NCBI GenBank assembly: GCA_022760435.1
Contig: JALEFY010000025.1
Span: 1-64,000 of the forward strand
Length of the DNA stretch: 64,000 nt
Direction: 5' to 3'
Origin: Neomegalonema sp.
GTDB lineage: Bacteria > Pseudomonadota > Alphaproteobacteria > Rhodobacterales > Rhodobacteraceae
Shown: in pieces, positions 23,350 to 61,406 of the stretch
Numbering within the stretch: position 1 is the stretch's first letter
Layout: each line of letters opens with the position of its first letter
Notes under the pieces: model-generated
Told to the model about the DNA's origin: nothing
Databases searched by the model: none
What the model saw: the letters and a program-made list of their open reading frames with translations, nothing else
Position numbers and translations under genes: made by a program

Positions 23350-23379
23350 CCGGGCGATTTCTCGAGCCCTTGCCCTGCA

Positions 23380-24524: not shown

Positions 24525-24614
24525 GCCTTCGCGCGCTAAGCCCGGCCATGGTCAATGAAACAGAAGGCAGCGGACATCGGATCCGCGCCCGATCAGCCTT
24601 GAGTATCGAGACAG

Positions 24615-28343: not shown

Positions 28344-28347
28344 CGCG

Positions 28348-36878: not shown

Positions 36879-36880
36879 GC

Positions 36881-38008
36881 TCAATCCCCATCCGCCGCGC
36901 TAAAGCCGGTATCGACGCCGAGGCCGGGGCCGATATCTTGCGCCAGTTGCAATTGAAGATAGCGGATCTTGGTCTGCACTGCCTCTGCCCGGATCCGGGT
37001 CTGCGGCGCCTTCACCGCCTCGTGCAGCGGCATGCCGATGCGCCCGATCCGTTCATGCGCCTGATCGACCACCCGCAGCACCCAGTTCCGGCTCGGCTCG
37101 ATGATATCGCCCGCCAGACCGAATTCGATCATCTGTCCGATGCCGGTGAGCTGCGCATCGATCAGCGCCAGGGACAGCTCCGAACGCCAAGCCTCGGCGC
37201 GGCGCGGATAGCTGCGGGTTGGCTCGCCCAGCGGACGGGACAAACGGGCTTCGGCAATGCGGATCAGCCCGAAATCAAGCGCGGTATAGATCTGCTTGGT
37301 GAACTCTTCAGCCGAGAGATAGACCGGATTGTCCGGCCCGGCCGAGCGGGCGAGATCGGCCCAGCCTTCGGGAGCGAACCAGTCGTCATAGAGCTCGGCG
37401 GCGATCCGCGTCAGATTGCCGGAAATGCCGGTGAGCGAAGGGCAATCGGGGGTGCTCTCGAGCAGCAGGCGCTCGATCGCCGGAAAGCCCTGAATGGCGG
37501 CGGAGAGATGCGCGATCTCGGCGGGATCGGCGCGGGTCTCGGCGGGAAGGCCGTGCAGCATCGCCAATCCGCGCTTCACAAAGCCTTTCTTGTCGGGCCA
37601 GAAATTCACCGTGAGCGCGGCACCGCGGGCCTCGATCGGGCCAAATTGGTAACTGTCGAGCGGCGCCCAGGCCAGATAGGCGGCGCGATACGCCTCGCTC
37701 ACCGCTTGCGGGGCGGGCGCTGCGCCCGAGGCGGCGCACCAGGCGTCGATCTCTTGCGCCATGCTGGCGGTGCGGTCGCGAAAGGTGCCAAATTGCTGTG
37801 CGAGCACATCCAGCACCCGGCGGCGGATCGCATCGTGATCTGTCTGCCCGGCGCCTTCGGGCTCATAGGGCAAGCCGAGCTCGGCATTGTGGGTCGGCAA
37901 GCCGCGCGCATCGAGCGTCGGCGCTGTCGCACTGCTCTGAGCGAGCGCCGGGGCAGCACAAAACGCCAGAAGAAAGCCTGCGGCGGTAAAGAGAACGGGG
38001 CGCTTCAT
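36881..38008 (-). CDS. Imelysin-like periplasmic protein
   Basis: A 375-residue secreted protein of the imelysin (M75-like) family, with a signal peptide ending PALA before QSS. It is alpha-helical, with paired sequence features in the two halves. The family's GxHxxE motif, implicated in metal binding, appears as GFPAIERLLLE, with proline in place of histidine. It therefore belongs to the divergent second imelysin type found in such operons and may not bind iron the same way. GAGG precedes the ATG at 38008, eleven bases after the upstream stop codon. Confidence 0.87.
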   Translation of the reverse strand: MKRPVLFTAAGFLLAFCAAPALAQSSATAPTLDARGLPTHNAELGLPYEPEGAGQTDHDAIRRRVLDVLAQQFGTFRDRTASMAQEIDAWCAASGAAPAPQAVSEAYRAAYLAWAPLDSYQFGPIEARGAALTVNFWPDKKGFVKRGLAMLHGLPAETRADPAEIAHLSAAIQGFPAIERLLLESTPDCPSLTGISGNLTRIAAELYDDWFAPEGWADLARSAGPDNPVYLSAEEFTKQIYTALDFGLIRIAEARLSRPLGEPTRSYPRRAEAWRSELSLALIDAQLTGIGQMIEFGLAGDIIEPSRNWVLRVVDQAHERIGRIGMPLHEAVKAPQTRIRAEAVQTKIRYLQLQLAQDIGPGLGVDTGFSAADGD

Positions 38009-38019
38009 GGCAAGGGTCC

Positions 38020-39666
38020 TCACAGGGATTCAAGAAAACGGATCAATGCGTCGCGATCTTGCTTTGGCAATGCCCGCACGGCCTCGCGCGCCGCCTCTGC
38101 CTCGCCGCCATGCCAGAGCACCGCCTCGAGCAGTGAACGGGCGCGCCCATCATGCAGAAAATAACTGTGCCCGCTCACCGCCTTCGTCATGCCAATGCCC
38201 CAGAGCGGCGGCGTGCGCCATTCGCGCCCTGTCGCGAGCCATTCGGGGCGGTGATCGGCGAGCCCTTCGCCCATATCGTGCAGCAGGAAATCCGAATAGG
38301 GCCAGATGAGCTGGAAACTCTGCTCGGGCTGATCCTTCAGACGATGGGTAACGAATTTGGGTTGATGGCACTGCGCGCAGCCAAGGCCGTAGAACACCTC
38401 CTTGCCGCGCAGCACCAACGGATCCTCGAGATCGCGCCGGGCGGGCACCGCGAGATTGCGCGCATAAAAGCTGACCAGATCCAGCATTTTTGCCGAGATC
38501 TCCACCGGCTTCTCGCCGTCGTCATAGCCATGCGGCGCTTTCAGGCAAGCTTGCTGATCGGGTGTGCATTCGCCGCCGCCCCCCGGATGCAGCGGATTGG
38601 CGATGCCCATATCCCCGGCAAAGGCTCCGGCTGACTGCTCCTTCACCGTTGGCGCCCCGGCCTTGAGCCCGAAGCGGCCGAGCATCCATTGCCCGAATTC
38701 TGCGCTCCAGACCCGGTTGGGGCGGCCGGAGATCCCGTCGCCATCGCTGTCTTCGGGATCGGCGAGAGCGAGGATATCGCCTTGAGGGATCGCTTCGATG
38801 AGCCCCAGCCCGATCATTTGCGGCGCGATGCGGGGGCTGAGCTGCACCGCAGGATGCAGCGGGCCATAGCCGGTCTCGACGACGCTGTAGCGCGGGCGGC
38901 GCAGGGTTATCACGGAGCCATCGGCGAGGCTGACCGGGACCGGTTCATAGGCGATCCGCATGCGCCCTTCAGGGGCGTGGCCAGCGATGGCGCGGTCCTG
39001 CATCTGCAAGCCATAGACCGGCTCGGGTGCATTCGGCATCTTGTCCAGCACAGAAGCGGGCAGGCTGCTGAGCGACTTGGGAATCGACAGGCGCAGAAAC
39101 ATCGAATCGGCCGCATCCTGCGGGCCATCGGGTGGGTGCCCGCGCCCATCCTTCAAGTGGCAGCGCTGGCAGGAGGCGGTGTTGTAGATCGGCCCGAGCC
39201 CATCCGTTTGGGCATTGGCGCCCGGTGCTGGCTCAAAAACCCGCTCGAACAGGCCATTGCCGAGCTTGAACAGCGCTTCGCGTTCAAAGGGCATATTGGC
39301 CGAAGGCGTCGAGAATGCCTCGCGGCTGTGGAGGCCAAAGCGGGTCGCTTTGCCCGCGGGGTGGGTCTCGAAGCGTTCTGGCCGCGAGAAATCCTCCGCC
39401 AAGGCGCGCACCGCTGCGATCCGGGCCCGTTCCTTGTCGGTCCGCGGGATGATCGCGAGATGCGGCTCGCCCCAGGGGGCGGCATCGCCTTTCGCTTCGG
39501 CATGCGGCGCTTGCTCTGCCGTCGCTCCTGCGGATGCGGCTGGCTTGCTGAGATGTTTGGGGGAAGCGGCTGGCCCGGTTGGGCTGGCTGGAGCGGCGGC
39601 CGGAAGGGCCCATACTCCGCTCGTCAACAACGCCGCGAGGGCGGCGCGCGCGAGTGACGCTGTCAT
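38020..39666 (-). CDS. Di-haem oxidoreductase family protein
   Basis: A 548-residue secreted protein with two c-type haem-binding motifs: CQRCH at residues 166-170 and CAQCH at 430-434. A signal peptide covers about residues 1-25. The DUF1111 (di-haem thiol oxidoreductase) family is recognised from the spacing and blocks such as DGRGHPPDGP and PPLWGIGM. It probably transfers electrons in the periplasm as part of iron handling; the reaction is unproven. AGGA precedes the ATG. It is the first gene of the three-gene minus-strand operon; the canonical first imelysin gene often found upstream is absent. Confidence 0.9.
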   Translation of the reverse strand: MTASLARAALAALLTSGVWALPAAAPASPTGPAASPKHLSKPAASAGATAEQAPHAEAKGDAAPWGEPHLAIIPRTDKERARIAAVRALAEDFSRPERFETHPAGKATRFGLHSREAFSTPSANMPFEREALFKLGNGLFERVFEPAPGANAQTDGLGPIYNTASCQRCHLKDGRGHPPDGPQDAADSMFLRLSIPKSLSSLPASVLDKMPNAPEPVYGLQMQDRAIAGHAPEGRMRIAYEPVPVSLADGSVITLRRPRYSVVETGYGPLHPAVQLSPRIAPQMIGLGLIEAIPQGDILALADPEDSDGDGISGRPNRVWSAEFGQWMLGRFGLKAGAPTVKEQSAGAFAGDMGIANPLHPGGGGECTPDQQACLKAPHGYDDGEKPVEISAKMLDLVSFYARNLAVPARRDLEDPLVLRGKEVFYGLGCAQCHQPKFVTHRLKDQPEQSFQLIWPYSDFLLHDMGEGLADHRPEWLATGREWRTPPLWGIGMTKAVSGHSYFLHDGRARSLLEAVLWHGGEAEAAREAVRALPKQDRDALIRFLESL

Positions 39667-39833: not shown

Positions 39834-41387
39834 TTATTTGCGGTAGACCCACAGAGCGTTGTTCTCGTGATTGCTGGTGTCTTCGCCAATGAGGACATCG
39901 CCATTGCCGAGCACGAGCACATTGTCCGGGTTCGAGATCGAGCCGACCGGGCAGGCATTGGGCTTGTTGGCCTTGTCATAGCCGTGACCGGCGACCAGCG
40001 GGACCATTTTCGAGACGTTGAAATTCGCGTCGAGTTTCATCTCGTAGACCACGCCGCATTTGTTTTCGGCCAGATCGATATCGCCTTCGCCATCGCTCAT
40101 GGTTTTGCCGATCGACGACATCGCCATGACCATGAACGGCACCGAGCCGTCCTTGGCACCGGCGAAGTTGATGTTCACGCCTTCCATCTTGCGGAATTCA
40201 CCGGTCGCGCCTTTGGCCACGGCAGCCTTGCGGCTTTCGAGGAAGGCAACGCGGTTATCGGCGGCATCGCCAGCGGCCCAGGCGGCGACTTCTTCGTCGG
40301 TGATGTAGCTGGTCTTGCCGGCTTCGTACTTGTCGGTGCCGATGCCGTCATACTGACGAACCCAGCCTTCGATCTCTGCGTTCGAGCCATGGGCGAGCTC
40401 AATCCAGGAGATTTGCAGCGCGGTGTCCGCGGCAGAGGCGCCAGCCTCGCCCAGTTGCTTGATCTTGGCGGCGAACAGGGTGCCCGCGCTCAGATCGCCC
40501 GCCTTGTCGGCAACGAATTTGAAGAAGACAACGCCGGTGCCGTCATCGGAGAGATAGACGGTCTTGTTATCGGGCATCACCACCGAGTTCTCGTGGCTGA
40601 AACGGCCCATCGAGAAATGCTTGACCGGGCGGACATCGCCGGTCGGGTTTTTCATTTCGATGATATAGCCGTAATCATACGGGTTCGGGAACTGGCCCAG
40701 ATGCGATGCCAGAGCAGCGACATCCTCATGTTCCTTGTACTCGACATTGTTCCACTCGGCGGTGTCGTCGAAATACAGCTCTTCCGAGCTCAGGGGCGTG
40801 TTCCACGGGGAGACGGTGCCGAAGCAGTTGATCCAGGTGCCGTTCACGGCGGAGAAATCGACCATCGAGACCGAGCCTTCGGCCACCGACCAGGTGCCAT
40901 CGGCAGCGCGGCTCAGTTTTGCGCGCGACATGCCGCCCGGGGTGTTTTCCCAGTTGGTGAACAGGAAGCCTTCGTTCTCACCGGTCGGGATGAAGCCGTT
41001 GAAATCCGGGTCGTTCGAGACCAGCAGACCTTCGCCGCCAGCAGTGTTGATCACGCCGACAACGCCCATGTCACCTTCCTGGAGCAGGGTCTGATAGGCG
41101 CCCAGGGTGCTCATGACACCGATCTTCTCGGCATCGGTGCTCGGGGCGGCTTGCTCACCGGCGGCCCAGTTCACATTGGCGATGACGCCGACGGTGGCCT
41201 TGGAATAGGGGCCGTCGATCTTGGCATCCGGGTGCTGGATGTTCATGAACAGGTCCGAGCCGTGCTCGTAAAGACCAGTGATCTCGGCCTTGAGCGGAAC
41301 GGTCAGAACACGGGTCAGGCCTTCGGCCGATGCTGCAACCGGGGTCAGCACCGATGCGGCCAGCAGGCCGGCGATGAGCTTTTTCAT
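39834..41387 (-). CDS. PhoX-like secreted phosphatase
   Basis: A 517-residue secreted protein of the DUF839/PhoX family. The signal peptide is MKKLIAGLLAASVLTPVAASA. The beta-propeller core has FTNWENTPGGMSR, SPWNTPLSSEE, GRFSHENSVVMPDNKTVYLS and a C-terminal DNVLVLGNGDVLIGEDT. PhoX enzymes are calcium/iron phosphomonoesterases that release phosphate from organic phosphate; activity here is inferred from family. Codon use favours CTG, GGC, GGT and ATC as in well-expressed genes. GGAGAG precedes the ATG at 41387. A Pho-box-like sequence lies about 70 bases upstream. Confidence 0.85.
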   Translation of the reverse strand: MKKLIAGLLAASVLTPVAASAEGLTRVLTVPLKAEITGLYEHGSDLFMNIQHPDAKIDGPYSKATVGVIANVNWAAGEQAAPSTDAEKIGVMSTLGAYQTLLQEGDMGVVGVINTAGGEGLLVSNDPDFNGFIPTGENEGFLFTNWENTPGGMSRAKLSRAADGTWSVAEGSVSMVDFSAVNGTWINCFGTVSPWNTPLSSEELYFDDTAEWNNVEYKEHEDVAALASHLGQFPNPYDYGYIIEMKNPTGDVRPVKHFSMGRFSHENSVVMPDNKTVYLSDDGTGVVFFKFVADKAGDLSAGTLFAAKIKQLGEAGASAADTALQISWIELAHGSNAEIEGWVRQYDGIGTDKYEAGKTSYITDEEVAAWAAGDAADNRVAFLESRKAAVAKGATGEFRKMEGVNINFAGAKDGSVPFMVMAMSSIGKTMSDGEGDIDLAENKCGVVYEMKLDANFNVSKMVPLVAGHGYDKANKPNACPVGSISNPDNVLVLGNGDVLIGEDTSNHENNALWVYRK

Positions 41388-41456
41388 GTAAGATCTCTCC
41401 ATTGCTACCGAGTGCCGTTGCGGCACCTTTGGCAGCGCGGACCATAGGAGCGTTCT

Positions 41457-41519: not shown

Positions 41520-42731
41520 TCACAGGGAGCTGTGGGCGAGTGCCTCGAAATGCCCACGCGGGTCGGTCGGGCTCAGGGTGCCAGCGACGACTTGCTGGAT
41601 GCTGTGCCGAATGCTCTGGGCGAAACTGCGGTAGCTGGGCCCCGAGGCCGCCCGTTTGGCGAGCGCGATTCGGTCGGACGGGCTGCGTGGCAGGGCGGAG
41701 AATTCGATGAAGGCCTGCGCCAGGCTCACCGGATCTTGCGGATCGAACAGCACCGAGCCGCTCAGATCAGCGAGCTCCGCTCCGGCGCCGGTTGCGGCAA
41801 CGAGAACCGGTTGCCCGAGCCGCGTGGCCTCCAGCACCCAGCGCCCGGTTGCATCGCGCAATTGCGGCAAGATCAGCCCGCGCGAGCGATAGAGCGCGCC
41901 GCGCAGGGTTTCGATATCGCTCAGCGGTGAGGCGGTGACGTGGCGCGATTGCAGAGCCTCCGGGGCCGGGCCGTCGGTGAGAAACAGGTGGAAATGCGCC
42001 CCCTCGAAAGCAGTGCCAAAGCGCTGCATCGCCGCGGACAGGACCTCCAGATTGCCAAGCGGCCCGCCGGGTGCGATCACGATATAGGGCGCACCGCGCT
42101 CGCCCTTGCCTGCGTGTTCTTCGCTCCCCCAGCGGGCTTGTGCTTGCGCGAAGTCAGGGCCAAGGCAGCCGGGCCGAGCGATGATTGCTGGCGCGCTGTG
42201 ATCTTGCGCGAAAAGGCGCTCATGATCGCGCCAAACGGCCTCGGAAGGGCAGACGATCAACGCCGCGCGATCCAGCGAGCGCGCAAGCGTGATGCGCCGG
42301 TTTCGAACCTGATCGCGCTCACCAGTACCTTGATCGCCATGCGAGGGTGCTAGATTTGGCGCGAGCAAGGGGGCGATATCGTGCAGGATCTGCACGTTGA
42401 AATCGAAAGGATGGGCCTTGGCCTGCGGCGCGATGCTCAGCCCGACCAAGGGTTCATCCTCATATTTCGCGATTGCCTTGTCGAGCAGCCCGGTTTGCAC
42501 CAGCCCGGCGCTCAGCTTGCGGCGATGCTCGCCTCCTTCGAAATTTCGGGCGGTCCATTCGATGAAACGCTCCGGGTAGAGCCGTCCGGCGTGATGACAA
42601 TAGACCCGGTCAAACACATCGAGGCATTCTCGCAGGCCGAGCGCCAGGCCGAGGATCAACTCAGCATGCGCGGGCGGGTTCTCGGCACTGCGGCTCTCGA
42701 AAGCCGGGCTGACATCAATGAAGAGTTTCAT
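41520..42731 (-). CDS. GT-B-like glycosyltransferase 5 of the minus-strand cluster
   Basis: A 403-residue protein, last in a five-gene minus-strand run. The C-terminal half is GT4-like: APGGPLGNLEVLSAAMQRFG, then RGLILPQLRDATGRWVLEA and LGQPVLVAATGAGAELADL, which place the E-x7-E type glutamate region. The N-terminal half (MKLFIDVSPAFES, then QILHDIAPLLAP) is an acceptor-side Rossmann domain. No membrane segment. The ribosome-binding site before the ATG is weak. Donor, acceptor and polymer are unknown. Confidence 0.75.
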   Translation of the reverse strand: MKLFIDVSPAFESRSAENPPAHAELILGLALGLRECLDVFDRVYCHHAGRLYPERFIEWTARNFEGGEHRRKLSAGLVQTGLLDKAIAKYEDEPLVGLSIAPQAKAHPFDFNVQILHDIAPLLAPNLAPSHGDQGTGERDQVRNRRITLARSLDRAALIVCPSEAVWRDHERLFAQDHSAPAIIARPGCLGPDFAQAQARWGSEEHAGKGERGAPYIVIAPGGPLGNLEVLSAAMQRFGTAFEGAHFHLFLTDGPAPEALQSRHVTASPLSDIETLRGALYRSRGLILPQLRDATGRWVLEATRLGQPVLVAATGAGAELADLSGSVLFDPQDPVSLAQAFIEFSALPRSPSDRIALAKRAASGPSYRSFAQSIRHSIQQVVAGTLSPTDPRGHFEALAHSSL

Positions 42732-42790
42732 GGCATTCTCATTCGGCAGCGTCCTGCGTGATCCTGTCGGGCTCTTGGCCGTTGTTCGGC

Positions 42791-44116
42791 TCAGGCGGCG
42801 GCGATGGCGGAGCGCGAAGGCAGGGGCGGCGTGGTCCGCGTTTCCTCATCCAGCGATGCTGCGAGAGGGGCGGGGGTGGCGGGCGGCGCATGGGTTGGAG
42901 CTTCTCCCGGGCGGTGCGCTGAGCCCACTCCCATGCTCATTCCCGTGCTCACTCCCATGGCGCTTTGAAGCACGCGAGCCAAAGCCTCATCACCGGCCAG
43001 GTTGGCCACGTGCCGGGCAGCCGCCTGCGCGCGCTCGCGGCGATATCCGTCCGACATCGCTTCAGCGCGGGTAAAGGCTTCGGCCAGCGCACCGCCCGAG
43101 CAGCCCCATTCGCGCAAGCCGCTCACGCCCAAGGGGCTCTGTTCGCGCGGCAAGGCGCGCAGATCCGCTTGAGCGAGGATGGCGGTGTCCTCGGTCGCCA
43201 GATCCGCCAAAACTGTGCAGCCGGGAGTAATGGGCACGCATTGCGCCGCCATCGCCTCGAGCAGCAGGCGATCATGCCCCGCCTGCCGGGCGCAAGGACG
43301 AATGAAAAAGTCGCCCGCGCCGAGCAGGATCGCACGACCGGCATCGCTCAGCGGCTCGGCGATGAAGCCGATCCGGGGGCCATGTTCTCCTGCGATATCA
43401 TCAAGGCCGAGCAGTCCGCGCGCGAGCTTGAAGCTGGCCCGGCTTGGCTCCAGATCGAGCGCAATCAGGAGCTGCCCGCTCTCCAGCGCCCCGGCAGCCT
43501 TCAGCAAGGCTTTGAGCGCCCGTCGCTCGGCAAAGGGATCAAGCGCCGCGATCATCAGCGGACCGGGGCGCTGGGCTCGAAATCCGCTCAGGCGCTCGGG
43601 GCGCATGGCGCCCACGGGCAGGCTCGTCGTCCAGATCGGGGCGGGGAAGTCATCGAGCCCAATGGTGCTATCGGCGGCGGTTGCCGGGGAGGCGGCGCCA
43701 ATCGGTGTTGGCATCAGCACATTGCCGGGGCCCTTGGCGGCGTTCAACAAGCCTTGCGCATGGCTGCTACCGGCCAGAACCAGATTGGCGCGCGAGAGCA
43801 GACGCAACTGGTCGCGCATTGGATCATCGCCGATGGCGCGCCCGCTCAGCGCATGCCACGCCCAGTCGAAAACCACCGCGAGCTGGGTGCCGTAAACGCT
43901 CGCAGCTTGCTCAAGCGGTGCGAGGCAGACATGCCAGCCGGGCTCTGAAGGATCATCCTGCACGAAGACCCGGCGCGCGGCGGCGCTGTCATGGATCGGA
44001 GCGCTGAGCCAGCGCGGCGCGAGGCCCAGTCGCTCGAAAGCAGCCGCAAACGCGTCGGCCCGTTCGCACACGGCCTTGCCTGCGGCCGCATTCGGCATTG
44101 TCACAAACAGCTTCAT
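42791..44116 (-). CDS. Divergent GT-B-like protein with low-complexity tail
   Basis: A 441-residue protein. Its C-terminal Rossmann half includes GAGDFFIRPCARQAGHDRLL, LEAMAAQCVPITPGCTVLAD, recognisable as GT-B-like. The N-terminal half is weakly conserved and no second sugar-donor motif can be placed. The last 55 residues are Pro/Ala/Thr/Gly-rich and contain a 12-bp tandem array (42926-42961), so the C-terminus is probably disordered. GGGG precedes the ATG at 44116. Function inferred from fold-like features only. Confidence 0.65.
   Translation of the reverse strand: MKLFVTMPNAAAGKAVCERADAFAAAFERLGLAPRWLSAPIHDSAAARRVFVQDDPSEPGWHVCLAPLEQAASVYGTQLAVVFDWAWHALSGRAIGDDPMRDQLRLLSRANLVLAGSSHAQGLLNAAKGPGNVLMPTPIGAASPATAADSTIGLDDFPAPIWTTSLPVGAMRPERLSGFRAQRPGPLMIAALDPFAERRALKALLKAAGALESGQLLIALDLEPSRASFKLARGLLGLDDIAGEHGPRIGFIAEPLSDAGRAILLGAGDFFIRPCARQAGHDRLLLEAMAAQCVPITPGCTVLADLATEDTAILAQADLRALPREQSPLGVSGLREWGCSGGALAEAFTRAEAMSDGYRRERAQAAARHVANLAGDEALARVLQSAMGVSTGMSMGVGSAHRPGEAPTHAPPATPAPLAASLDEETRTTPPLPSRSAIAAA
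42926..42961 (-). repeat. Three 12-bp tandem repeats in coding sequence
   Basis: CACTCCCATGCT (42926), CATTCCCGTGCT (42938) and CACTCCCATGGC (42950). On the minus strand they encode repeats of the form SMGV/STGM near the C-terminal tail of the GT-B-like protein. Confidence 0.8.
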
Positions 44117-44235
44117 GTACGCCTAGCCCCATCCCATTCATTGTCGTCCAGAGGGGGGCTCCCCCAAGCTCCATTCCCCCAAGCACCACTCATCTTGCGC
44201 CCCCGATCTTGCGCCGAGTCGCCTCTAGCCCTCTT

Positions 44236-45051
44236 TTAGCCTACGCGGGCGGCGTAAAATTGCGAGAGGGGGGCGGCGTTTCGAGCAAACGCGGCCAAAT
44301 CGTGGCCGGCCTGTTGCAGCAGCGCGTCGTAGTGCCCTTCGCTCCAGATCTCCGGGTCGAATTCCAGTCCCAAAGCCCTGAAGGCGAGCTCGGGGGAGCG
44401 AATCTGCATCGATGCATCCGGCAGGAGAAAACTGGTGTCGGATTCATGCCAGAGCTGCGAGCAGCGAAAGGCGCTGAGCCCGGGCGCGAGCCGCTTGCCG
44501 CGCACTTGCTCCTGAAATTCCTGACCGCTGGCCAGTTCGAGGGCAAGCTCGGCGGCCCGAAGCTCGCCCTGTCGCAAGCGATCGGCGGCGAAGCTCTCTT
44601 CCTCTGGCTCTGGCACCCGCCCGAGAATGTCCTGATAGAGCCCCGCCACGACGCTCTGGGCGGGCAGCCCCAGCGCGCGGGCTTCATCGGGGGTGCAGCT
44701 TGGGCCGCCTTGCCGGGCGAGCGCGGGCAGATTGACCCGGGCCACAAAGTCGCCGATCCGGCTGGTCTCCAGCCGGTCCGTGCCCGGATGGACCTGGCCG
44801 CTATAGGGCGCATAGAGGTAATAGCCGCCCGCCAGCCTGGCGCCGTCCGGGAAGACCACCGTATCGGCCTCCAGCAGCAGGGCATCGCCGCCATGATAAA
44901 GGCAATGCGCGGTCGGATGGCCCGGCAGGCCGACATCTTCGATACGCCCATGCAGATCGAGCAAAAAGAGAATGTCGAGCGCCGCAGAATGGCGCGGATT
45001 GCGAAAGCGGATCCGAAGATCCGGCCCGTCAGCGATCATTTGCTCAAACAT
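44236..45051 (-). CDS. DUF4214-domain protein
   Basis: A 271-residue protein. The centre, about residues 134-182, is a DUF4214 domain: GLYQDILGRVPEPEEES through SGQEFQEQV. This helical domain resembles phycobilisome linkers and is found in surface and glycan-related proteins. The N-terminal part (from MFEQMIADGPDLRIRF) is a beta-rich segment not recognised. The start at 45051 overlaps the upstream gene by eight bases with GGGGGG just before it. The same domain is present twice in the giant GT2 protein at 24615, linking the two clusters. Confidence 0.75.
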   Translation of the reverse strand: MFEQMIADGPDLRIRFRNPRHSAALDILFLLDLHGRIEDVGLPGHPTAHCLYHGGDALLLEADTVVFPDGARLAGGYYLYAPYSGQVHPGTDRLETSRIGDFVARVNLPALARQGGPSCTPDEARALGLPAQSVVAGLYQDILGRVPEPEEESFAADRLRQGELRAAELALELASGQEFQEQVRGKRLAPGLSAFRCSQLWHESDTSFLLPDASMQIRSPELAFRALGLEFDPEIWSEGHYDALLQQAGHDLAAFARNAAPLSQFYAARVG

Positions 45052-46240
45052 GCAAGGCCCCCCGCCAATCGGTCCCAAGCGTCGGTGCCGCGCGCAGTTT
45101 CTCTTCGGCATCGGCGATGATTGTCTGCGCCGCCATCTCCCAGGTGAAATGACGGGCTCGGGTTGCGCCGAGCCGATTGCGCGGCTGGGCGAGAGCGGCG
45201 TCAAACGCCTCGCAGAACTGACCGGCGAATTGTCCGGGCTGATTGGGATCGAAATAGCGACACGCGCCGCCGCCGATATCCGTATTCGCCCCGCCCAGAC
45301 TGGTCAGAACCGGTTTCTCCGCCGCCATCGCGCTGATCAGCCAATGCGGGTCGAGCCCATCGAGATCCGCCCCCACCACCAGAAGCGCCGCGTCAATCAG
45401 GTGCCGAGCGGCGTGATCTTCGAGCCGATCAAGGATCACCACTTGCTCATCGAGCATTGCGCTCAGGCCGAGCCCGTCGAAAAGTCGGCGCCAGTCCTCG
45501 GGGTTCGAGCCTTCGTCAATCACGACCAGATCGAACTGATACTGGCTGCCCGGATCGCGAGCGAGCCAGGCCAGCAAGGGGTTGTCGATGGCCCTTTGCG
45601 GCAGATCGGCCCAGAGCAGGATCAAGGGTCGGATGCCATCATGGACGATCTCGATTGGCGCTGGCGCGGCGGCATCCTCCAGCGCGCCGCCGATGGGCAG
45701 GGCTTTCACATCGCACTGATCCTGCGCATCTAGATATAGCTGCGCCTCGGCCGCTGCGGCGCCGTTGAGGCAAAAGAGCGTGTCGGCATGCCCGAGCGCG
45801 TGCTCATGGCTGTGCAGCATCTCGCGCCGCTTTTGCGGATCGCGCATGCGAAGCAAGGGGGCAAGGCGATCGAGCACGATCGCTTCGGCGGCAAAGAGCC
45901 CGTGCACGAAGCGGGTCGCGGGGAAAAAGCCGTAGCTCTTGGGATCGGCCACCGGCAAGGTGCCGCGCGTGCGCAGACGGTGCGCGGCGGAGGCGAAACT
46001 GGCGGCCTCCATCCCGTTCAAGGCATCGAGCGCAAGGGCGCGGGGCAGTTTCAGATCACCGTGGATGAAGTCAAGCCGCGTGCCCAGCGCCTCGTGCAGC
46101 GCCTTGCCGAGGAGCCGGATGCGCCGCGCTTCCATCTTCTGTGCCTGCGCCGGATCGCTGCCCAGCGCGCTCAGATCATAGGACAGGCGCACGGAGCGCT
46201 CATGGCTCCGGGCGGCGCCGTTCATTTGCAGCGCATTCAT
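45044..46240 (-). CDS. GT-B-like glycosyltransferase 2 of the cluster
   Basis: A 398-residue protein. The C-terminal half is GT4-like: RPLILLWADLPQRAIDNPLL, IDAALLVVGADLDGLDPHW and SAMAAEKPVLTSLGGANTDI. The N-terminal half is helical and poorly recognisable. The ATG at 46240 overlaps the stop codon of the upstream gene as ATGA, so the two are translationally coupled; it in turn overlaps the DUF4214 gene. Substrates unknown. Confidence 0.7.
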   Translation of the reverse strand: MNALQMNGAARSHERSVRLSYDLSALGSDPAQAQKMEARRIRLLGKALHEALGTRLDFIHGDLKLPRALALDALNGMEAASFASAAHRLRTRGTLPVADPKSYGFFPATRFVHGLFAAEAIVLDRLAPLLRMRDPQKRREMLHSHEHALGHADTLFCLNGAAAAEAQLYLDAQDQCDVKALPIGGALEDAAAPAPIEIVHDGIRPLILLWADLPQRAIDNPLLAWLARDPGSQYQFDLVVIDEGSNPEDWRRLFDGLGLSAMLDEQVVILDRLEDHAARHLIDAALLVVGADLDGLDPHWLISAMAAEKPVLTSLGGANTDIGGGACRYFDPNQPGQFAGQFCEAFDAALAQPRNRLGATRARHFTWEMAAQTIIADAEEKLRAAPTLGTDWRGALHV

Positions 46241-47796
46241 GCGAGACGCCCTCGCGCTGGTCCGCGGTGATGGCGGCCCAGAATACTATCGCGGACACGA
46301 TCCAGATCCGTATCGAGGTCGATCGGCCCGGCTTGCGGGTCTCGCGCGCTGCCCAGAAACGGCGCGGTGGGCGCATGGCTGCACAGCGCCGAGCCCTCAT
46401 TGCGCAGATCGCGGCGGGCAATCAGCGGCGGCGAGCCGGTGGTGCCGCCCAAAGGCGGCGCGGCAATATCCTCGCCTGCCAGATGCTCGGTTCCGAGATC
46501 TTTGCTCGTCAGATAGTCCTGGGCGAGGCTCTCGTGATGGCCGCTCGCAGAGTTGCGCTGCGCACTGCCATTCAGGATCTCGTCATCGCCGGGCGCGCCG
46601 AGCCCGGTCTGGCTGTCGCCAGCCAAAACCAAATCGATGCGGTGCATGGCGCTCGGCAGCGAAAAGCGCGCCATCGCGGTATCCATCGCCCGCCCCGAGA
46701 GCGCCGTGAAACTCTCCGGAGAGACCGCCACCGCTTCCTTGCAAGCGGTCGAGACCGCGCGGGCAGTCACTTCGCTTACTCTGATGGCATTGTCGCGTGT
46801 CAGATAGCTCGCTTCGCCCGACAGGAACGGCGCCACTGGCACCACGCCGCTCAGCATTGCCGCTTGTAGGGCGAAATTCTGCGGCAGGCCCTCGGCGGTA
46901 TTGAGATAAAAATCCGAGACCTCGCACAGCCCGGCAAGCAGCGGCTCCGTGATCGGGCCCGGCAAGATCGCCATTTGCGTACAGGCCAGCGGCCCGAGCC
47001 GCTCTGTCAAGGCACCGATTATCTGAGCCGGATGCTGGGCGGCTCGGCGATCCGGGTCGAGCGAGAAAGCGAGCAGCAGACGCGATTGCGGATGATGGGC
47101 GGCATGCAGGGCGAAGCCGCGCATGAGGGCCTCGAGCTCCTCCTTGGGGGCATCCGGATCGATCAGGCTGAGGAACACCCGGTTCGGTCTTTGCACCTCA
47201 CTGGCTTGCTGCGCGTTCGCCAGCCATTGCTCGAGCGGAACCGGCGCGTCATGCCCATGGAGCCAGGCCAGCAAGCCTTTGAGCGCATCGGGCTTTGCTG
47301 CCGGGAGCCAGATCGGGGCGGGGACGTGCTGGGCCTGGGCAAAGCCTGCGGCGCGCAAGGCAATCGCCGCCGGGCGATTCGGGACCCAAAGCGCATGGGA
47401 CCGCTTGGCCAGCCGATGATCAAGCGCATCCCAGGACCCGAGCGCCTCGGTCGGATCGGGCGGCAGCGGCAGCATCAGCACATTGCGGATGCCCCGCAAA
47501 AAGACGGATGGCGCACCCGCCCTCTCGCCCAGTCCGCGGAACCCGAAATGGACAGCAGACAGCGCCGATTGCGCCTTCCCCTCAAGCGAGCCTGTATCGA
47601 GTGAGCCCGTATCGAGCATCGCACGCGGGGCGAATTCGGGATGCGTATAAATCTCGGGATGTGCGAGTTCGACGAAATCGCGCCCCATCTGCTCGAAAGC
47701 CAGCCGATAGCCGTCGAGCGCAAGTTCCAGCCATGCCGCAGGCACAGCCAATTCTGCAAATCCGGAAGCCTCGCTTCCGCGCGAAAAGAACGCCAT
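46237..47796 (-). CDS. GT-B-like glycosyltransferase 1 of the cluster
   Basis: A 519-residue protein, first of the five-gene run. The recognisable region at about 200-390 has NRVFLSLIDPDAPKEELEAL, CEVSDFYLNTAEGLPQNFAL and AMLSGVVPVAPFLSGEASYL, a GT4-like donor-binding half. After it come about 110 residues of polar, probably disordered sequence to the C-terminus, longer than usual. A 15-bp duplication at 47588-47617 gives DTGSLDTGSL near residue 62. GAG lies before the ATG at 47796. It is coupled to the next gene by an ATGA overlap. Confidence 0.7.
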   Translation of the reverse strand: MAFFSRGSEASGFAELAVPAAWLELALDGYRLAFEQMGRDFVELAHPEIYTHPEFAPRAMLDTGSLDTGSLEGKAQSALSAVHFGFRGLGERAGAPSVFLRGIRNVLMLPLPPDPTEALGSWDALDHRLAKRSHALWVPNRPAAIALRAAGFAQAQHVPAPIWLPAAKPDALKGLLAWLHGHDAPVPLEQWLANAQQASEVQRPNRVFLSLIDPDAPKEELEALMRGFALHAAHHPQSRLLLAFSLDPDRRAAQHPAQIIGALTERLGPLACTQMAILPGPITEPLLAGLCEVSDFYLNTAEGLPQNFALQAAMLSGVVPVAPFLSGEASYLTRDNAIRVSEVTARAVSTACKEAVAVSPESFTALSGRAMDTAMARFSLPSAMHRIDLVLAGDSQTGLGAPGDDEILNGSAQRNSASGHHESLAQDYLTSKDLGTEHLAGEDIAAPPLGGTTGSPPLIARRDLRNEGSALCSHAPTAPFLGSARDPQAGPIDLDTDLDRVRDSILGRHHRGPARGRLA

Positions 47797-48317: not shown

Positions 48318-50069
48318 ATGGCGCGCGATCAGGCGGGTTCTGAATGGACGGCTCAGGAGGCGGTGGCGCATTTGCGCACCACCTTGCTTGCGATGCGCGC
48401 CTGTTCCGCCGATGGTTTCGGCCGCGCCGCCGATCTTGCCCAGCGCGCCTTGTCCGATGGTAACCCACCGCTCACGCTGCTGACCCCCGAACCGGCACGC
48501 ACGCTTGCCGCCCATCGCGAGGCTTTGCTCGAATTGCGGATTTGCGAAGACGACATTCTCGCGCGCGCTCTGGCGCAGATCAGTGGGCAGGCTCGGCTCG
48601 GCTCCGGCGTTTGCGAGGCGGAACGCCCGGCATCGCTGCGCCACGAGTTCTTCACCGCTTTGGGTGCCGAGGTCATCAGCGCTTCCCAGATAGGCCAGAT
48701 CAATCCGTTCGATCCGCGCCCCGCGCAAGGGATGCGTCTGGTGACGGGGACGGCGCCGGAGGTTCTGGTGGCCAGTGCGGCAGAGATCGCCGCCCTGCGC
48801 CGCCGCCGTCTGGGCGATGCCGCCGAAGCCAGCGAAGAGGAAGACGCGGAAAGCCTGCGCCGCCAAGCCGAGGAAGGGCCGGTGATCCGGCAAGTAAATG
48901 CCTTGATCGCTCGGGCGCATGAAAGCGGTGCCTCCGATATTCATCTCGAAGCCCAGCCGGGCGGGTTGACCTTGCGCCTGCGCATTGATGGCGTGCTGCG
49001 CGAGATCCCGGCCCCGCCTGCGGATATGGCAACGGCGATCATTTCGCGGATCAAGATCATGGCCGGTCTCGATATTGCCGAGCGTCGCCGTCCGCAAGAT
49101 GGTCGGGCCCGCGCCGATCTGGGCGCTGATGCCTTGCAAGGCAGCCGGGCGCTCGATCTGCGGATCGCGACCGCCCCGGCGCTGCATGGGGAGAGCGTGA
49201 CGCTCCGGCTCTTGCGACGCGACGGTTCGGTGCCTCCGCTGGAGAGCCTGGGCGCCGATCCCGGTGCCATCGCGCAGATCAATGCCCTGCTTGCCCGCTC
49301 AACCGGCCTGCTGCTGGTCACCGGCCCGACCGGGTCGGGCAAGACCACGACCCTTTATGCGATGCTCGGACGCTTGCGCGGGCCCGAGCGCAAGATCATG
49401 ACCATCGAAGATCCGGTGGAGTATGAGATCGAAGGGTTGACCCAGATCCCGGTGCATCCGGCAATCGGGGTCGATTTTGCCGCCACCTTGCGCACCAGCC
49501 TGCGGCATGATCCGGATGTGGTGCTTGTCGGTGAGACGCGCGATCCGGAGACGGCAAAAACGGCGGTGCAAGCGGCGCTGACCGGGCATCTGGTCCTCAC
49601 ATCGATGCATACCAATGACGCCGCCACCGCGATTGCTCGGCTCGCGGAAATGGGGGTCGAGCCTTATCTGATCCCCTCTACCGTGAGCGCTGCGATCGCC
49701 CAGCGCCTGCTGCGGCGGTTGTGCAGCGATTGCCGAACTCCGGTTGAACGGGCGGACCCGGAACTGGCGCAGCGGCTGGGGCTCGAGGCGGCGCAGGCGC
49801 GTTTGGGGCGCTCATTGCGGTTCTATGAGGCGCCGGGCTGTGCGCATTGCGATCAGACCGGTACCAAGGGGCGCTTTGCGGTGTTCGAGATCCTGCCGAT
49901 GAGCGATGAGATCGCCCATCTGGCGATCAGCAATGCAACTGCCGGGCAGATCCGGCAAGCCGCGCGCAGCGCCGGTATCCGCTCGATGCTGGATGCCGCT
50001 CTGCTCGCCGCGGATGCAGGCGATGTCTCGCTGGACGAGATTGCGCGCGTGCTCGGAGCGGTCCAATGA
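48318..50069 (+). CDS. gspE: Type II secretion ATPase GspE
   Basis: A 583-residue hexameric cytoplasmic ATPase that powers pseudopilus assembly. The N-terminal part carries the GspL-binding and N2 domains. The C-terminal ATPase has Walker A GPTGSGKTTT from G336 with K342, Asp box TIEDPVEYE, Walker B DVVLVGETRDPETA and His box GHLVLTSMHTNDA. A zinc-binding tetracysteine is present: C469 and C472 (CSDC), C508 and C511 (CAHC), typical of T2SS ATPases. GGCGGAG precedes the ATG. It heads an operon of eight coupled genes and overlaps gspH by ATGA. Confidence 0.93.
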   Translation: MARDQAGSEWTAQEAVAHLRTTLLAMRACSADGFGRAADLAQRALSDGNPPLTLLTPEPARTLAAHREALLELRICEDDILARALAQISGQARLGSGVCEAERPASLRHEFFTALGAEVISASQIGQINPFDPRPAQGMRLVTGTAPEVLVASAAEIAALRRRRLGDAAEASEEEDAESLRRQAEEGPVIRQVNALIARAHESGASDIHLEAQPGGLTLRLRIDGVLREIPAPPADMATAIISRIKIMAGLDIAERRRPQDGRARADLGADALQGSRALDLRIATAPALHGESVTLRLLRRDGSVPPLESLGADPGAIAQINALLARSTGLLLVTGPTGSGKTTTLYAMLGRLRGPERKIMTIEDPVEYEIEGLTQIPVHPAIGVDFAATLRTSLRHDPDVVLVGETRDPETAKTAVQAALTGHLVLTSMHTNDAATAIARLAEMGVEPYLIPSTVSAAIAQRLLRRLCSDCRTPVERADPELAQRLGLEAAQARLGRSLRFYEAPGCAHCDQTGTKGRFAVFEILPMSDEIAHLAISNATAGQIRQAARSAGIRSMLDAALLAADAGDVSLDEIARVLGAVQ

Positions 50070-50623
50070 AACAGGGGGCGCGGCGCAGGGAATGGATCGG
50101 GCGGGCGCTGAGCCGCCGCAAAGGGTGGCCGCAAGCGTCCAGACGCGCCGGGGCCACGCTTATCGAGATGCTGGTGGCTCTCGGTCTTCTCGGGGTAATC
50201 GCCGCCATCGCCTTGCCGCGTCTTCTCCCGTCGGATGCGCGGCTTTTGGCGCAGGACAGCGCGGCGGTTCTGCAATTCCTGCGTTCGGGGCGCGAAGAAG
50301 CGCTGGCGCTGGGGGCGCCGCAACGTCTGGTCCTGTTCGCGCAGGAGGGGCAGCTCTCCTGGCGGCCGCTCTACGCGCCGCCTCTGCCGGGCCCGGCCGA
50401 AGCGCGATCCGGGGCGGCGCTCTCGCTGGAGACTCGGACCCGCGCTGCCCTCCATTTGCGCCGTCCAGACGCTGGGCTGGTCTTCTATGCCGATGGTGCA
50501 AGCTCTGGCGGGCAGGTCCAACTCGAGCGCGGGGCTCTTGTGGCGCGGATCGGGGTCGATGCGCTGACCGGGGCGGTGGTCGATGGCGGGGTGCAGCGCG
50601 TGGAGACGGTCGGACAGCGATGA
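50066..50623 (+). CDS. gspH: Type II secretion minor pseudopilin GspH
   Basis: A 185-residue minor pseudopilin. The prepilin cleavage site is G29 before A30 in RRAGATLIEMLVALGLLG, with glutamate E34 at +5; alanine replaces the usual +1 phenylalanine. The hydrophobic helix then leads into a beta domain. The leader of 29 residues is long and basic. The ATG overlaps the gspE stop codon. GspH follows GspE directly here, whereas GspF and GspG normally stand between them. Confidence 0.82.
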   Translation: MKQGARRREWIGRALSRRKGWPQASRRAGATLIEMLVALGLLGVIAAIALPRLLPSDARLLAQDSAAVLQFLRSGREEALALGAPQRLVLFAQEGQLSWRPLYAPPLPGPAEARSGAALSLETRTRAALHLRRPDAGLVFYADGASSGGQVQLERGALVARIGVDALTGAVVDGGVQRVETVGQR

Positions 50624-51057
50624 CAGGCGCGGACAGCCATGATGCTCGCATGGATCACAAGTCAGCAATGCCGGTGATGCGCCGCGCAGGGTCGGTCTTT
50701 CTCGATGCCTTGATCGGAGTGATGCTGCTGGGCGGGGCGATGCTTGCCTTTGCCGAGCATCAGCACGCCGCCATGGGCCTGTCGCACCGGGCGCGGGCCG
50801 AGCTTGCGGCGGCGCGAGTGGCGCGGTCTGAATTTGCCTGGATCGCGGCGTCCAATCTGGCGGCGGGCGAGCGGCACAAGCGTGTTACGCTGCTTGCCGA
50901 TCAGGATGGGCAGATGCTCACCCGGATCACGCCGCGCGCTCTGGCCGGGCTTCGGGCAGTGACGATCGAGATCTCATGGCAGGGGCCGCGCGGGCGGCAT
51001 GTGAGCCGGTTTGAAAGCGCCTTCATCGACGGCGCCTTGAGCGGAGGGGCACCGTGA
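50620..51057 (+). CDS. gspI: Type II secretion minor pseudopilin GspI-like
   Basis: A 145-residue minor pseudopilin. Cleavage is expected at G24 before S25 in RRAGSVFLDALIGVMLL, so position +5 is aspartate D29 instead of the glutamate normal for GspI. Short length and place between H and J fit GspI. The ATG overlaps the gspH stop as ATGA and its stop overlaps the gspJ GTG. Confidence 0.78.
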   Translation: MTGADSHDARMDHKSAMPVMRRAGSVFLDALIGVMLLGGAMLAFAEHQHAAMGLSHRARAELAAARVARSEFAWIAASNLAAGERHKRVTLLADQDGQMLTRITPRALAGLRAVTIEISWQGPRGRHVSRFESAFIDGALSGGAP

Positions 51058-51776
51058 TCGGCTCGCGAAGGACGACCGCTCGCATGAGGCACCGGGCGGG
51101 CTTTACTCTGGTGGAGATGCTGGCGGCTCTGGTGCTGCTGAGCTTGATCGGGGTGATGGCCAGCGCCGGACTGCATCGGGCAGGGATGATGCGCGGGGCG
51201 CAGCTTGATCGCCAGGCGCAGGCCGAGCAGGAGATGGCGGCGCTGCGTCTGGTCGAGAGCAGTCTGGCTCAGGCGCGGGTGGTGAGGCTGCGCAAGGCAG
51301 ATGGCACATTCGGCAGGCTCAGTTTTCAGGGCGATGCCCGGCGCTTGCTCCTGCTGACCCATGCGAGCCGTGGCGGCGGCCCGGCCGGGCATGCGCTGCT
51401 CCGTTTGAGCCTGTCTGCCTCTGGCGATGGACCGGGCGAGGGCAGTGCCTTGCATTATCAGCGCATTGATCTGCCTGCCGCGCATCTGGTGAGCGAGACG
51501 CTGCTCGATCCGAAGGCGCGCGCGCAACTGCCCGCCGCGCGCGAAGCGCGACTGATGATGCCGATGGCGCTGCAATGGCGCTATTACGGGGCGCGCTCGG
51601 CCGGAGAGGTGGCGGCCTGGCATGCCGCATGGCAGGGGGAGCGGGTGCCGCCGCGCCTCGTCGCTCTGTTTGATCTGCGTGAGAACCGGCCGATCCTCAT
51701 CGCGCCGGTTGCGCCCGGTTTGGCCCTGCTATGCGAAACCCGTCCGGAAGCCTATGCCTGCGAGCGTCTGCCATGA
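51054..51776 (+). CDS. gspJ: Type II secretion minor pseudopilin GspJ
   Basis: A 240-residue minor pseudopilin with a canonical class III leader: cleavage at G16 before F17 in RAGFTLVEMLAALVLL, glutamate E21 at +5. Length and position fit GspJ, which with GspI and GspK caps the pseudopilus. It starts with GTG at 51054 preceded by GCGGAGGGG, and overlaps the gspI stop codon as GTGA. Confidence 0.86.
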   Translation: MIGSRRTTARMRHRAGFTLVEMLAALVLLSLIGVMASAGLHRAGMMRGAQLDRQAQAEQEMAALRLVESSLAQARVVRLRKADGTFGRLSFQGDARRLLLLTHASRGGGPAGHALLRLSLSASGDGPGEGSALHYQRIDLPAAHLVSETLLDPKARAQLPAAREARLMMPMALQWRYYGARSAGEVAAWHAAWQGERVPPRLVALFDLRENRPILIAPVAPGLALLCETRPEAYACERLP

Positions 51777-58266: not shown

Positions 58267-59052
58267 TCACTGAATCTTGCGGCGGAGCAGGCGTTCGGTC
58301 CAAAGGCCCAGAAAGACCAGAGCGAAGGCCCAGATGCTCATGTAGAGCGGGTCAAGCACGGCCTCGGGATAGGTTGGGTAGAGGCCGCTGCGAAAATAGG
58401 CAATCACATGGAGCAGCGGGTTCCAGGCCAGCATGTCGCGATAGGTGGGCGGCAATGTCTCCGGCAAGAAGAACACCCCCGATAGCAGGAACATGCCCCG
58501 CGTCGCCATCGAATAGATCGCGGCCCAGCCCGAGATGAAATAGTCGATGACCGCATTGAGCAAGCCGATCCCGAAACCGATCGCAGCGGCAATCAGCATC
58601 GCGCCAGCGCAGAGCTGCGGCGCATAGGGAAAGGCATATTCAGACCCGCTCCAGCCCACATAGGCCAGCAGGATGACGCCGATGATGCAATAGACAACCA
58701 GCGTTTCGAGCGTGGTCGCAAGAGCCTTGCCGGTCGTGGTAACCATCGGGTTTCGATTGGCGCGCGCGGTGGCCTGTACCGACATGCCGGCCTTTGACGA
58801 AGCGGTTTGAAACACGCTGAACGGGATCAGGCCGCTCAGCAAAAACAGCATGATATCATCGCCGAGCGGGGCGTGCCGTCCGATCAGGGAAAACAGCAGC
58901 CCGATGACCAGCACACCGGCGGCGTTTTCGGCCAGGGTCAGCACAAAGCCGAGCCGCGCTCCGGCGCGATGGCGCTTGAAGCCTTGGATCAGTAGCGCTT
59001 CGGTCACTCGGATCCGAGTGTTGAGGGCAGCGAAGAATCCGTACTGAGCCAT
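58267..59052 (-). CDS. kpsM: Capsule export ABC-2 permease (KpsM-like)
   Basis: A 261-residue membrane protein with about six hydrophobic helices, of the ABC-2 polysaccharide exporter family. RIRVTEALLIQGFKRHRAGARLG near the N-terminus is the family's cytoplasmic entry segment; FYGFFYLP-type features appear as LLSGVFFLPETLPPTYRDML and WNPLLHVIAYFRSGLY, both typical of KpsM. It would form the channel with KpsT. The ATG at 59052 has GGAG about eleven bases upstream. It is divergent from kpsE. Confidence 0.9.
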   Translation of the reverse strand: MAQYGFFAALNTRIRVTEALLIQGFKRHRAGARLGFVLTLAENAAGVLVIGLLFSLIGRHAPLGDDIMLFLLSGLIPFSVFQTASSKAGMSVQATARANRNPMVTTTGKALATTLETLVVYCIIGVILLAYVGWSGSEYAFPYAPQLCAGAMLIAAAIGFGIGLLNAVIDYFISGWAAIYSMATRGMFLLSGVFFLPETLPPTYRDMLAWNPLLHVIAYFRSGLYPTYPEAVLDPLYMSIWAFALVFLGLWTERLLRRKIQ

Positions 59053-59380
59053 GCGCGGCACTTCTCCGAATTGAGATTGCGATGCGTGTTTACTATAACG
59101 GTCCCCGAAGAAGCGGAAGTGGTTCCCCGGCCAGACAAATCCGGTTAGGACGAAAGAGCGTGACCGTATTGTGACGCGGGCCTCTTTGAGCGCGACGCGG
59201 ATGTGACGCAAGGTGCGCAACGCGGATGTGACACATGTCCGGGCCAGGGCGCGCCTTGCTGGTGCAAGCTGTGTCCGGAGCGCTTTCTTCGGCAGATGCG
59301 CATTTTCGCGCTTTGCCCATATAGTTGCCTGAATCGGGGCGTCTGACGAGGGCAACGGCACAGGAGTGGATCGAGAGCCA
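59053..59380. other. Divergent kps promoter region with repeated GTGAC motif
   Basis: These 328 bases lie between kpsM and kpsE. ACGCGGATGTGACGCA (59195-59210) recurs as ACGCGGATGTGACACA (59220-59235), 25 bases apart, and GTGACGC occurs again at 59171. These may be operator copies. On the minus strand TATAGT near 59093-59098 resembles a -10 box for kpsM but no good -35 is in place. No gene is seen. Confidence 0.45.
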
Positions 59381-60565
59381 ATGGCGTTCACCGATAAAAA
59401 AATGGGCGGCGGCAATGTGCCCGCTCGGCAGGATCCGCTCAAAGCGCAGCGGCAGGCGGCGGAGGACTTTGCCCGCGGCGTGCGTCGTCGGCGCAATTTC
59501 TACGGGTGGATCAGCTTCGCCTTACTGGTGATCCTGCCCACCCTGGCGGGGTTCTGGTACTATGAGACCCGCGCCGCCAATCAATATGAGACGACCTTCC
59601 AGTTCGCTGTGCGCAGCAATAGCGAAATGGTCGCGGCCGACTCGCTGATGGGGATGCTCGGCGGCGGGAGTGGCCTGACAGGCAGCGACAGTTATATTGT
59701 GGTCGAGTATCTCAAGAGTTCCGAGATGGTGCGCTCCCTGGAAAAACGGGTCGGGCTCACCGAGATCTTTGCGAAACCGACGAACGACCCGCTACACGCT
59801 CTGGCGACCCCGGTGCCGATCGAGGATCTGCTCGAATATTGGCTGTGGATGAGCGATGCCGAGTATGATGTGAGCAAGGGGGTGGTCGAGGTTTCGGTCT
59901 GGGCCTTTGCGCCGGAGGACTCGCTGACCATCGCGCAAGAGACGCTGGTTCTGGCGGATGAGCTGGTCAATGAGCTCTCCCGCATTGCCCGCGAGGAAGC
60001 CTTGCAATTTGCTGATCGTCAGGTCGCGACCGCTGCGGATGATCTGCGCCGCTCGCGTCAGGCGATCCAGGATTTTCGCAATGCCGAGAAGGTGTTCGAC
60101 CCGATTGCCGATGCGCAGCGGATCGATCAGCAGATCACCGCGCTTGAGAATGAAAAGATCCAGCTCACCACCGAGCTGGAAACCCGTGTCGCGACCGGTG
60201 GTGAGGGCGGGGCGGCCGTGCAGCAGATCCGGGAGCGGATCGCCGCTGTGGAGCGTCAACTGGTGGTCGTCGAGGACAGTATCGATGATGAAGTGCCCGA
60301 ACAGTCGCGTATCTATGAAGGCTTGCAGGCCGAGTATCAAATTGCGCTTCAGACCTACGCTTCGGCTCTGAGCGCTCGCCAGCAAGCCGAGGCGGTGGCC
60401 ACCCAGCGGCAGGTTTACTTGAGTGTTTACAACCCGCCAAGACTGGCAGAGGCTTCGATTTACCCCGATCGTCCTTATGTCATTTTCATGCTGTGCCTGA
60501 CCTGTATGGGGATCTGGGGCATTGTTTATGTCGTGATGCTCAACATTCGCGATGCGATGATTTAG
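59381..60565 (+). CDS. kpsE: Capsule export inner-membrane protein KpsE-like
   Basis: A 394-residue polysaccharide co-polymerase/adaptor of the KpsE/BexC/CtrB family. It has a short cytoplasmic start, helix one (about 46-66), a long periplasmic part with coiled coil (about 200-350: ADDLRRSRQAIQDFRNAEKV, then EARLAALENEK-like stretches) and helix two near the C-terminus (VIFMLCLTCMGIWGIVYVVM). It links the ABC exporter to the outer membrane. The ATG at 59381 has GAGAG close by; a GTG at 59366 is the alternative. kpsT follows 97 bases on. Confidence 0.9.
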   Translation: MAFTDKKMGGGNVPARQDPLKAQRQAAEDFARGVRRRRNFYGWISFALLVILPTLAGFWYYETRAANQYETTFQFAVRSNSEMVAADSLMGMLGGGSGLTGSDSYIVVEYLKSSEMVRSLEKRVGLTEIFAKPTNDPLHALATPVPIEDLLEYWLWMSDAEYDVSKGVVEVSVWAFAPEDSLTIAQETLVLADELVNELSRIAREEALQFADRQVATAADDLRRSRQAIQDFRNAEKVFDPIADAQRIDQQITALENEKIQLTTELETRVATGGEGGAAVQQIRERIAAVERQLVVVEDSIDDEVPEQSRIYEGLQAEYQIALQTYASALSARQQAEAVATQRQVYLSVYNPPRLAEASIYPDRPYVIFMLCLTCMGIWGIVYVVMLNIRDAMI

Positions 60566-60662
60566 TATCACTCTCGCAAGAGCGGCACGCTGGATGCAAT
60601 GTCGCTCTTGTGGACCTCCCCCGTTCCGGGTCATTGGGGGAGGAGCTTGTGGAGTTCGGTCG

Positions 60663-61406
60663 ATGATATTGCTCAAGAACGTGACGCATTTCGTCAAGGT
60701 GACGCGGCCGATCCTGCATGATGTCAGCGCGGTTCTGCCGGGTGACAAGCGTATTGCCGTGTTCGGAAATCGCGAAAGCGGCAAGACGACGATGGCCAAG
60801 ATCATCAGCGGCGCGCTGCCGCCCAAGATGGGCATGGTCATTCAGAAGCTGCGCGTGTCCTACCCCGTGGGCGCTTATTCCGATTTCTCGCAAAAGGCCA
60901 GCGTGGCGCATAATCTCGCGGATATCGCCCGGTCCTATGGCGTGAACGCACGCGCGCTCACCGAGTTTGTGGTCGAAGCCGGGGATGCGCAGATGTTCTT
61001 GCATCGCCCGATCGCCAAATTGACCTCTACCGAAAAGACCCGGCTGTTCTTCCCGTTGGTCTATGCGCTCCCGTTCGACTTTTATGTCCTTGATGGCCAG
61101 CCCGGTGGGGCGGTGCAGGCCTATAAGGAGCGGTTCGAGGCGCTGTTTCAGGCCCGGATCAAGAACAAGGGCATGATCATGTTCACGAACAAGCCCAAGC
61201 AAGCGCTCAAATACTGCGATACCGGCGCGATCCTGCATAATGGCCGGTTCGTCATCTATAAGAGCTTGAAAGAGGCGGTGCAGATCTATGAGCGGCATAT
61301 CCAGCCGCTTGAGGTCGATCCGGATGCCTCCGCTCCCAAGGCGCTGCCAGCGCCGACGCGCCAGGCCGAGATGCTGACGGCGCCTAAGGAAGGCATCTAT
61401 CTTTAG
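60663..61406 (+). CDS. kpsT: KpsT-like ABC ATPase with altered catalytic motifs
   Basis: A 247-residue ABC ATPase placed with kpsM and kpsE. Walker A GNRESGKTT is intact at 35-43, and SYPVGAY matches the KpsT WPVG block. But the signature, SSGM in E. coli KpsT, reads LTSTEK (120-125). Walker B reads FYVLDG with D144 but G145 where the catalytic glutamate should be. The switch histidine (SH) is TN (T175-N176). The last 30 residues are a Pro/Ala-rich tail. GGAG lies eight bases before the ATG. It may bind ATP but hydrolyse it unusually, or need a partner. Confidence 0.85.
   Translation: MILLKNVTHFVKVTRPILHDVSAVLPGDKRIAVFGNRESGKTTMAKIISGALPPKMGMVIQKLRVSYPVGAYSDFSQKASVAHNLADIARSYGVNARALTEFVVEAGDAQMFLHRPIAKLTSTEKTRLFFPLVYALPFDFYVLDGQPGGAVQAYKERFEALFQARIKNKGMIMFTNKPKQALKYCDTGAILHNGRFVIYKSLKEAVQIYERHIQPLEVDPDASAPKALPAPTRQAEMLTAPKEGIYL

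Follow-up and report, generated by a model that had tools for sequence, protein, structure and literature searches.

Background

Group 2 capsule systems, which depend on an ABC transporter and are built on KpsM/E/T and KpsS-KpsD-KpsC, need repeat-unit transferases. MshA, PimA, WaaG and WsaF are retaining GT-B enzymes of CAZy family GT4. An EX7E motif is common to GT4 structures, although WsaF is an active enzyme in which the first Glu of the motif is replaced (PMC3898925). In GtfA-GtfB, the O-GlcNAc transferase complex of accessory Sec systems, a GT4 enzyme has an inactive GT-B partner (PMC12809243), and the DUF4214 proteins described in the literature searched have been put forward as extracellular or surface-located (PMC11970703).

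The cassette described here, found in 64,000 nucleotides (called 'the window') of the Neomegalonema sp. contig JALEFY010000025.1, resembles each of these systems in part. Four of its five proteins (A, B, D and E) are homologous, as judged by sequence profiles, to GT4 proteins of this genome and of a second carrier, Rhodobacteraceae MAG.057, whose B homologue keeps EX7E; the window copies, however, lack the full motif and the usual Arg/Lys-bearing loop, and A and D fall below every family cut-off. Both carriers hold KpsM/E/T and KpsS-KpsD-KpsC homologues, as group 2 capsule loci do, but in the window 10.5 kb lie between the start of A and the kpsMET homologues, in MAG.057 the cassette is non-adjacent to the kps genes, and no described capsule region was found with paired degenerate GT4s and a DUF4214-like protein. 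Pairing of a GT4 enzyme and an inactive GT-B protein could by analogy be carried over from GtfA-GtfB, but the cassette would contain two pairs and a fifth protein, and neither accessory Sec genes nor a serine-rich repeat protein were noticed with it on non-systematic inspection. The fifth protein (C) has a recognizable DUF4214-like helical segment, but differs from DUF4214 proteins in that its match is below the cut-off and in having no strong hydrophobic segment.

Layout of the cassette

Genes A to E follow one another on the minus strand at 41520-47796, and encode proteins of 519 aa (A, 46237..47796), 398 aa (B, 45044..46240), 271 aa (C, 44236..45051), 441 aa (D, 42791..44116) and 403 aa (E, 41520..42731). 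A five-gene run had been proposed in the original prediction, and is borne out by intact ORFs, a coding-like codon composition (GC3 0.73-0.76, GC2 about 0.46-0.57, with similar values in neighbouring genes) and the repetition of the gene order in a second genus. The first three genes are coupled by start/stop overlaps, as had also been claimed (4 nt for A/B and 8 nt for B/C, the latter site, ATGTTTGA, being where C starts and B ends), while C and D are separated by 119 nt, and D and E by 59 nt. None of the cassette proteins showed a strongly hydrophobic segment of the kind found in membrane spans. Scans against Pfam and NCBIfam placed none of the five window proteins in a family above cut-off, and a PADLOC scan of the same proteins gave no defence-system match. 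EAD5 and VMAP matches on A and B were below cut-off and were discarded.

Gene C, expected to encode a DUF4214 protein, was DUF4214-like, although its match to the Pfam model (PF13946) reached 19.5 bits against a gathering score of 23.2 (E=0.001), and its MAG.057 homologue gave no DUF4214 match in Pfam. AlphaFold models built from two-sequence alignments were too poor to use for both C (mean pLDDT 43.6) and A (36.4); for C there is a hint of strand-rich structure towards the N terminus and of helices in the DUF4214-like segment. No paper treating both 'DUF4214' and 'glycosyltransferase' was found in the literature searched, which was itself incomplete.

Conservation in a second genus

A clear homologue of B was found in one other genome in a search of 41, that of MAG.057 (G008), in which contig JAHQVS010000163.1 carries A to D and the beginning of E, arranged as in the window. 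Identities between the two loci were 30.8% (A), 30.3% (B), 37.9% (C), 32.9% (D) and 34.5% (E), the MAG.057 copy of E being cut by the contig end. The 8 nt B/C overlap is identical in the two genomes; D and E overlap by 4 nt in MAG.057, unlike in the window, where they are separated by a gap. Searches with A in 198 genomes of the family and with C in 394 gave no carriers beyond these two, nor did the A or C profile in 385 genomes of the class, and no cassette was recovered from GTDB contigs (profile C), IMG/VR (profile A) or plasmids (A, C and D); these absences apply to the sampled genomes at the search sensitivities used. Among the weak matches considered as extra carriers, two (L004, L010) were GT4-type proteins, three (L013, L014, L019) yielded no cassette, and one (L018) consisted of 43 residues interrupted by stops. 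Since a second genus has the same genes in the same order, the cassette is more than a chance arrangement, and the neighbourhood survey suggested for it thus returned a conserved neighbourhood, in one other genus. The cassette is a real, conserved and rare five-gene glycosyltransferase set, probably serving a surface polysaccharide.

Relationship to GT4 glycosyltransferases

The Pfam GT4 models were matched weakly by B and E (for E, Glyco_trans_1_4 at 4.8e-5, below cut-off), while A and D matched nothing useful (no Pfam match for D), and in a sequence search of the PDB convincing matches to GT4 structures were obtained from the B profile only. A reference alignment was built from 17 GT4 proteins of the two genomes, and two-sequence profiles for each gene were compared both with it and with each other, using 60 column-shuffled controls per comparison except for B and E against GT4. 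A scored 46.9 against the GT4 profile (control maximum 21.8), D 37.8 (19.9) and the combined A+D profile 56.2 (16.0), while B and E scored 128.7 and 65.4, respectively, in a run without column-shuffled controls. B and E were confirmed as GT4 relatives by hmmsearch with shuffled-sequence controls; by this method, which is less sensitive than profile-profile comparison, A and D did not rise above the shuffles. The GT4 relationship claimed for four of the proteins is thus upheld, by profile-profile comparison for A and D and by hmmsearch and profile scores for B and E, and A, B, D and E are all, by these predictions, GT4 (GT-B) relatives.

Within the cassette, A scored 43.3 against D (control maximum 19.4) and B 61.4 against E (22.9). 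The B/E alignment spans columns 18-378, nearly the full length, and the partial A/D alignment about 100-346. Because the former is near full length and the latter starts ahead of the C-terminal half, each pair has related N-terminal halves, contrary to the view that the four proteins have unrelated N-terminal halves. The module looks like two diverged putative glycosyltransferase pairs arranged around the DUF4214-like C; duplication of a glycosyltransferase pair would be the simplest history, and separate recruitment is also possible.

Catalytic residues

Among the 17 reference GT4 proteins, both EX7E Glu residues were present in 12, at least one in all 17, and one was missing in 5, the columns being taken from an automatic alignment. 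Not one of the four window proteins has the full pair: neither Glu is in register in A or B (in B the motif is lost), D has kept the second Glu alone, and in E an Asp-X7-Glu replaces the motif. In MAG.057, B is canonical (EGFGLPVLE), and A and D have neither Glu. The cassette sites were located by eye, and the four proteins do not count as independent cases. As WsaF is active without the first Glu, loss of the motif is no proof of inactivity; we nevertheless infer that some cassette members may be non-catalytic. The unusual trait of the cassette, as predicted from its proteins, is a GT4 catalytic pattern that is eroded in paired paralogues around a DUF4214-like protein.

We tentatively favour, at a little under even confidence, a reading in which A to E form one cytosolic glycosyltransferase cassette. 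A would pair with B and D with E, A being related to D and B to E; a B/E-type protein would be the sugar-transferring member, and the A/D-type proteins non-catalytic partners, by analogy with GtfB for GtfA. C might be a scaffold or glycan-contact subunit, and the joint product part of a surface polysaccharide. If so, the cassette would exemplify, in a Gram-negative bacterium, the assembly of a glycan by active GT-B proteins together with inactive partners, and the conserved gene order makes complex formation and the role of the DUF4214-like protein directly testable. A more specific version, in which a five-subunit glycan synthase consists of two duplicated GT4 pairs, mostly pseudo-glycosyltransferases, held by a DUF4214-like scaffold, is unlikely; were it true, DUF4214, a domain of unknown function, would gain a role in glycan assembly.

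The same residues bear on a different explanation, possible though rather doubtful, namely that all four proteins are ordinary, active glycosyltransferases that evolve fast, tolerate an altered EX7E and each contribute a single sugar to a strain-specific capsule, LPS or EPS. The GT4 homology of all four is in keeping with this, as are the 5 of 17 other GT4 proteins that also lack one Glu, the WsaF precedent, and the identity of the cassette between the two genomes, which at 30-38% is below that of KpsC/KpsS (62-63%), as in variable glycan genes. However, A in both genomes and D in MAG.057 have neither Glu in register, where every reference GT4 keeps at least one, and the strict gene order around the DUF4214-like protein suggests joint action. 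Were the genes merely fast-evolving transferases, this would be one more strain-specific polysaccharide locus. The eroded EX7E, together with the very few carrier genomes, could also point to a decaying cassette that has lost its function, but with intact ORFs, coding composition and overlaps conserved in two diverged genomes we consider this very improbable.

Capsule export genes

For the favoured reading, joint assembly of a surface polysaccharide, a possible export route is present in the window. That no known polysaccharide marker is present is correct inside 41520-47796, but not for the window as a whole, in which homologues of KpsM (ABC-2 permease, 58267..59052, minus strand), KpsE/BexC/CtrB (inner-membrane export protein, 59381..60565, plus strand; TIGR01010 E=1.6e-52, below the curated cut-off) and KpsT/VexC (ABC ATPase, 60663..61406, plus strand) are found at 58267-61406, any association with the cassette being putative. 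Their arrangement is the same as in MAG.057 (L065), where KpsT-KpsE occur with a divergent KpsM, in addition to KpsS-KpsD-KpsC. In the Neomegalonema sp. genome, homologues of KpsS, a KpsD/Wza-like export protein and KpsC lie in a row on contig C21 (105000-124999, local 9746-14816), and their order and flanking genes are common to C21 and the corresponding MAG.057 locus (L029). All six homologues (KpsM, T, E, D, C and S) are thus present in both carriers, several of them below NCBIfam equivalog cut-offs.

No glycosyltransferase gene was recognized among the ORFs scanned beside the kps genes of either carrier, so the capsule transferases are probably encoded elsewhere. The cassette is, from these predictions, one candidate among many for this role; the transferase genes could also be others, as 14 places in the Neomegalonema sp. 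genome gave GT4 matches over cut-off. KpsE of the window shares 52-53% identity with its MAG.057 counterpart and at most 36% with those of the other genomes listed, and it is suggestive that the cassette and one KpsE subtype occur together. Shared ancestry may explain it, since more reciprocal best hits of at least 60% were found between the two carriers (15) than with two other genera (5 and 2), in a rough count over sampled stretches, from unequal samples with antisense frames included. Cassette and kps genes are on different contigs in MAG.057, though in so fragmented an assembly linkage is still conceivable; a capsule link is plausible, not syntenic. Taken alone, the proposal that the Kps-type ABC capsule exporter found in both carriers is the likeliest outlet for the product appears possible rather than probable.

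The original prediction of an undescribed glycan-assembly module is supported, within the libraries searched, by the conserved gene set, the GT4 ancestry, the lack of any family above cut-off and the lack of literature found that joins DUF4214 with glycosyltransferases. Its stronger form, that of a new system, goes further than the evidence: the cassette is composed of divergent GT4s plus a DUF4214-like protein, it was found in two genomes only, these may be relatives, and both have a Kps export set as a possible outlet. For the refuting conditions named in the original prediction the outcome was mixed. The neighbourhood proved conserved, and the cassette was not identified with any known capsule or S-layer operon; even so, among specific roles one in capsule formation is the most likely.

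Genomic surroundings

Upstream of the cassette, and divergent from it, is a type II secretion gene set (48318-55162), in which GspE and a PilN/GspL-like protein were identified by Pfam and the others by position. This neighbour raises the possibility that the cassette acts on a secreted or surface protein, such as an adhesin or a substrate of type II secretion, which it would glycosylate in place of building a polysaccharide, and the precedent for pairing among GT-B proteins, GtfA-GtfB, is itself a protein glycosylation system (PMC12809243). We regard this as improbable: the type II secretion genes are not next to the MAG.057 cassette, so that coupling to them was rejected as a conserved feature, and no acceptor gene with Ser/Thr-rich repeats was noticed nearby, in an inspection short of a systematic search. 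Where seen, the flanks of the MAG.057 cassette differ from those in the window.

Downstream of the cassette, a PhoX gene (39834-41426) is followed by genes for di-haem oxidoreductase, imelysin (Peptidase_M75) and DUF1513 proteins (35784-39666), a row that is iron-uptake-like. A second group of glycan genes is present at 21532-29451 of the window, with an ArnT/PMT_2-like protein, an ArnC-like GT2, a GT4, and a 1242-aa protein whose C-terminal domain is a GT2. On contig C25 of the Neomegalonema sp. genome (272039-278314), three GT4 matches were found in neighbouring, very long ORFs (open frames of 774-1123 aa), which are probably multi-domain glycosyltransferases.
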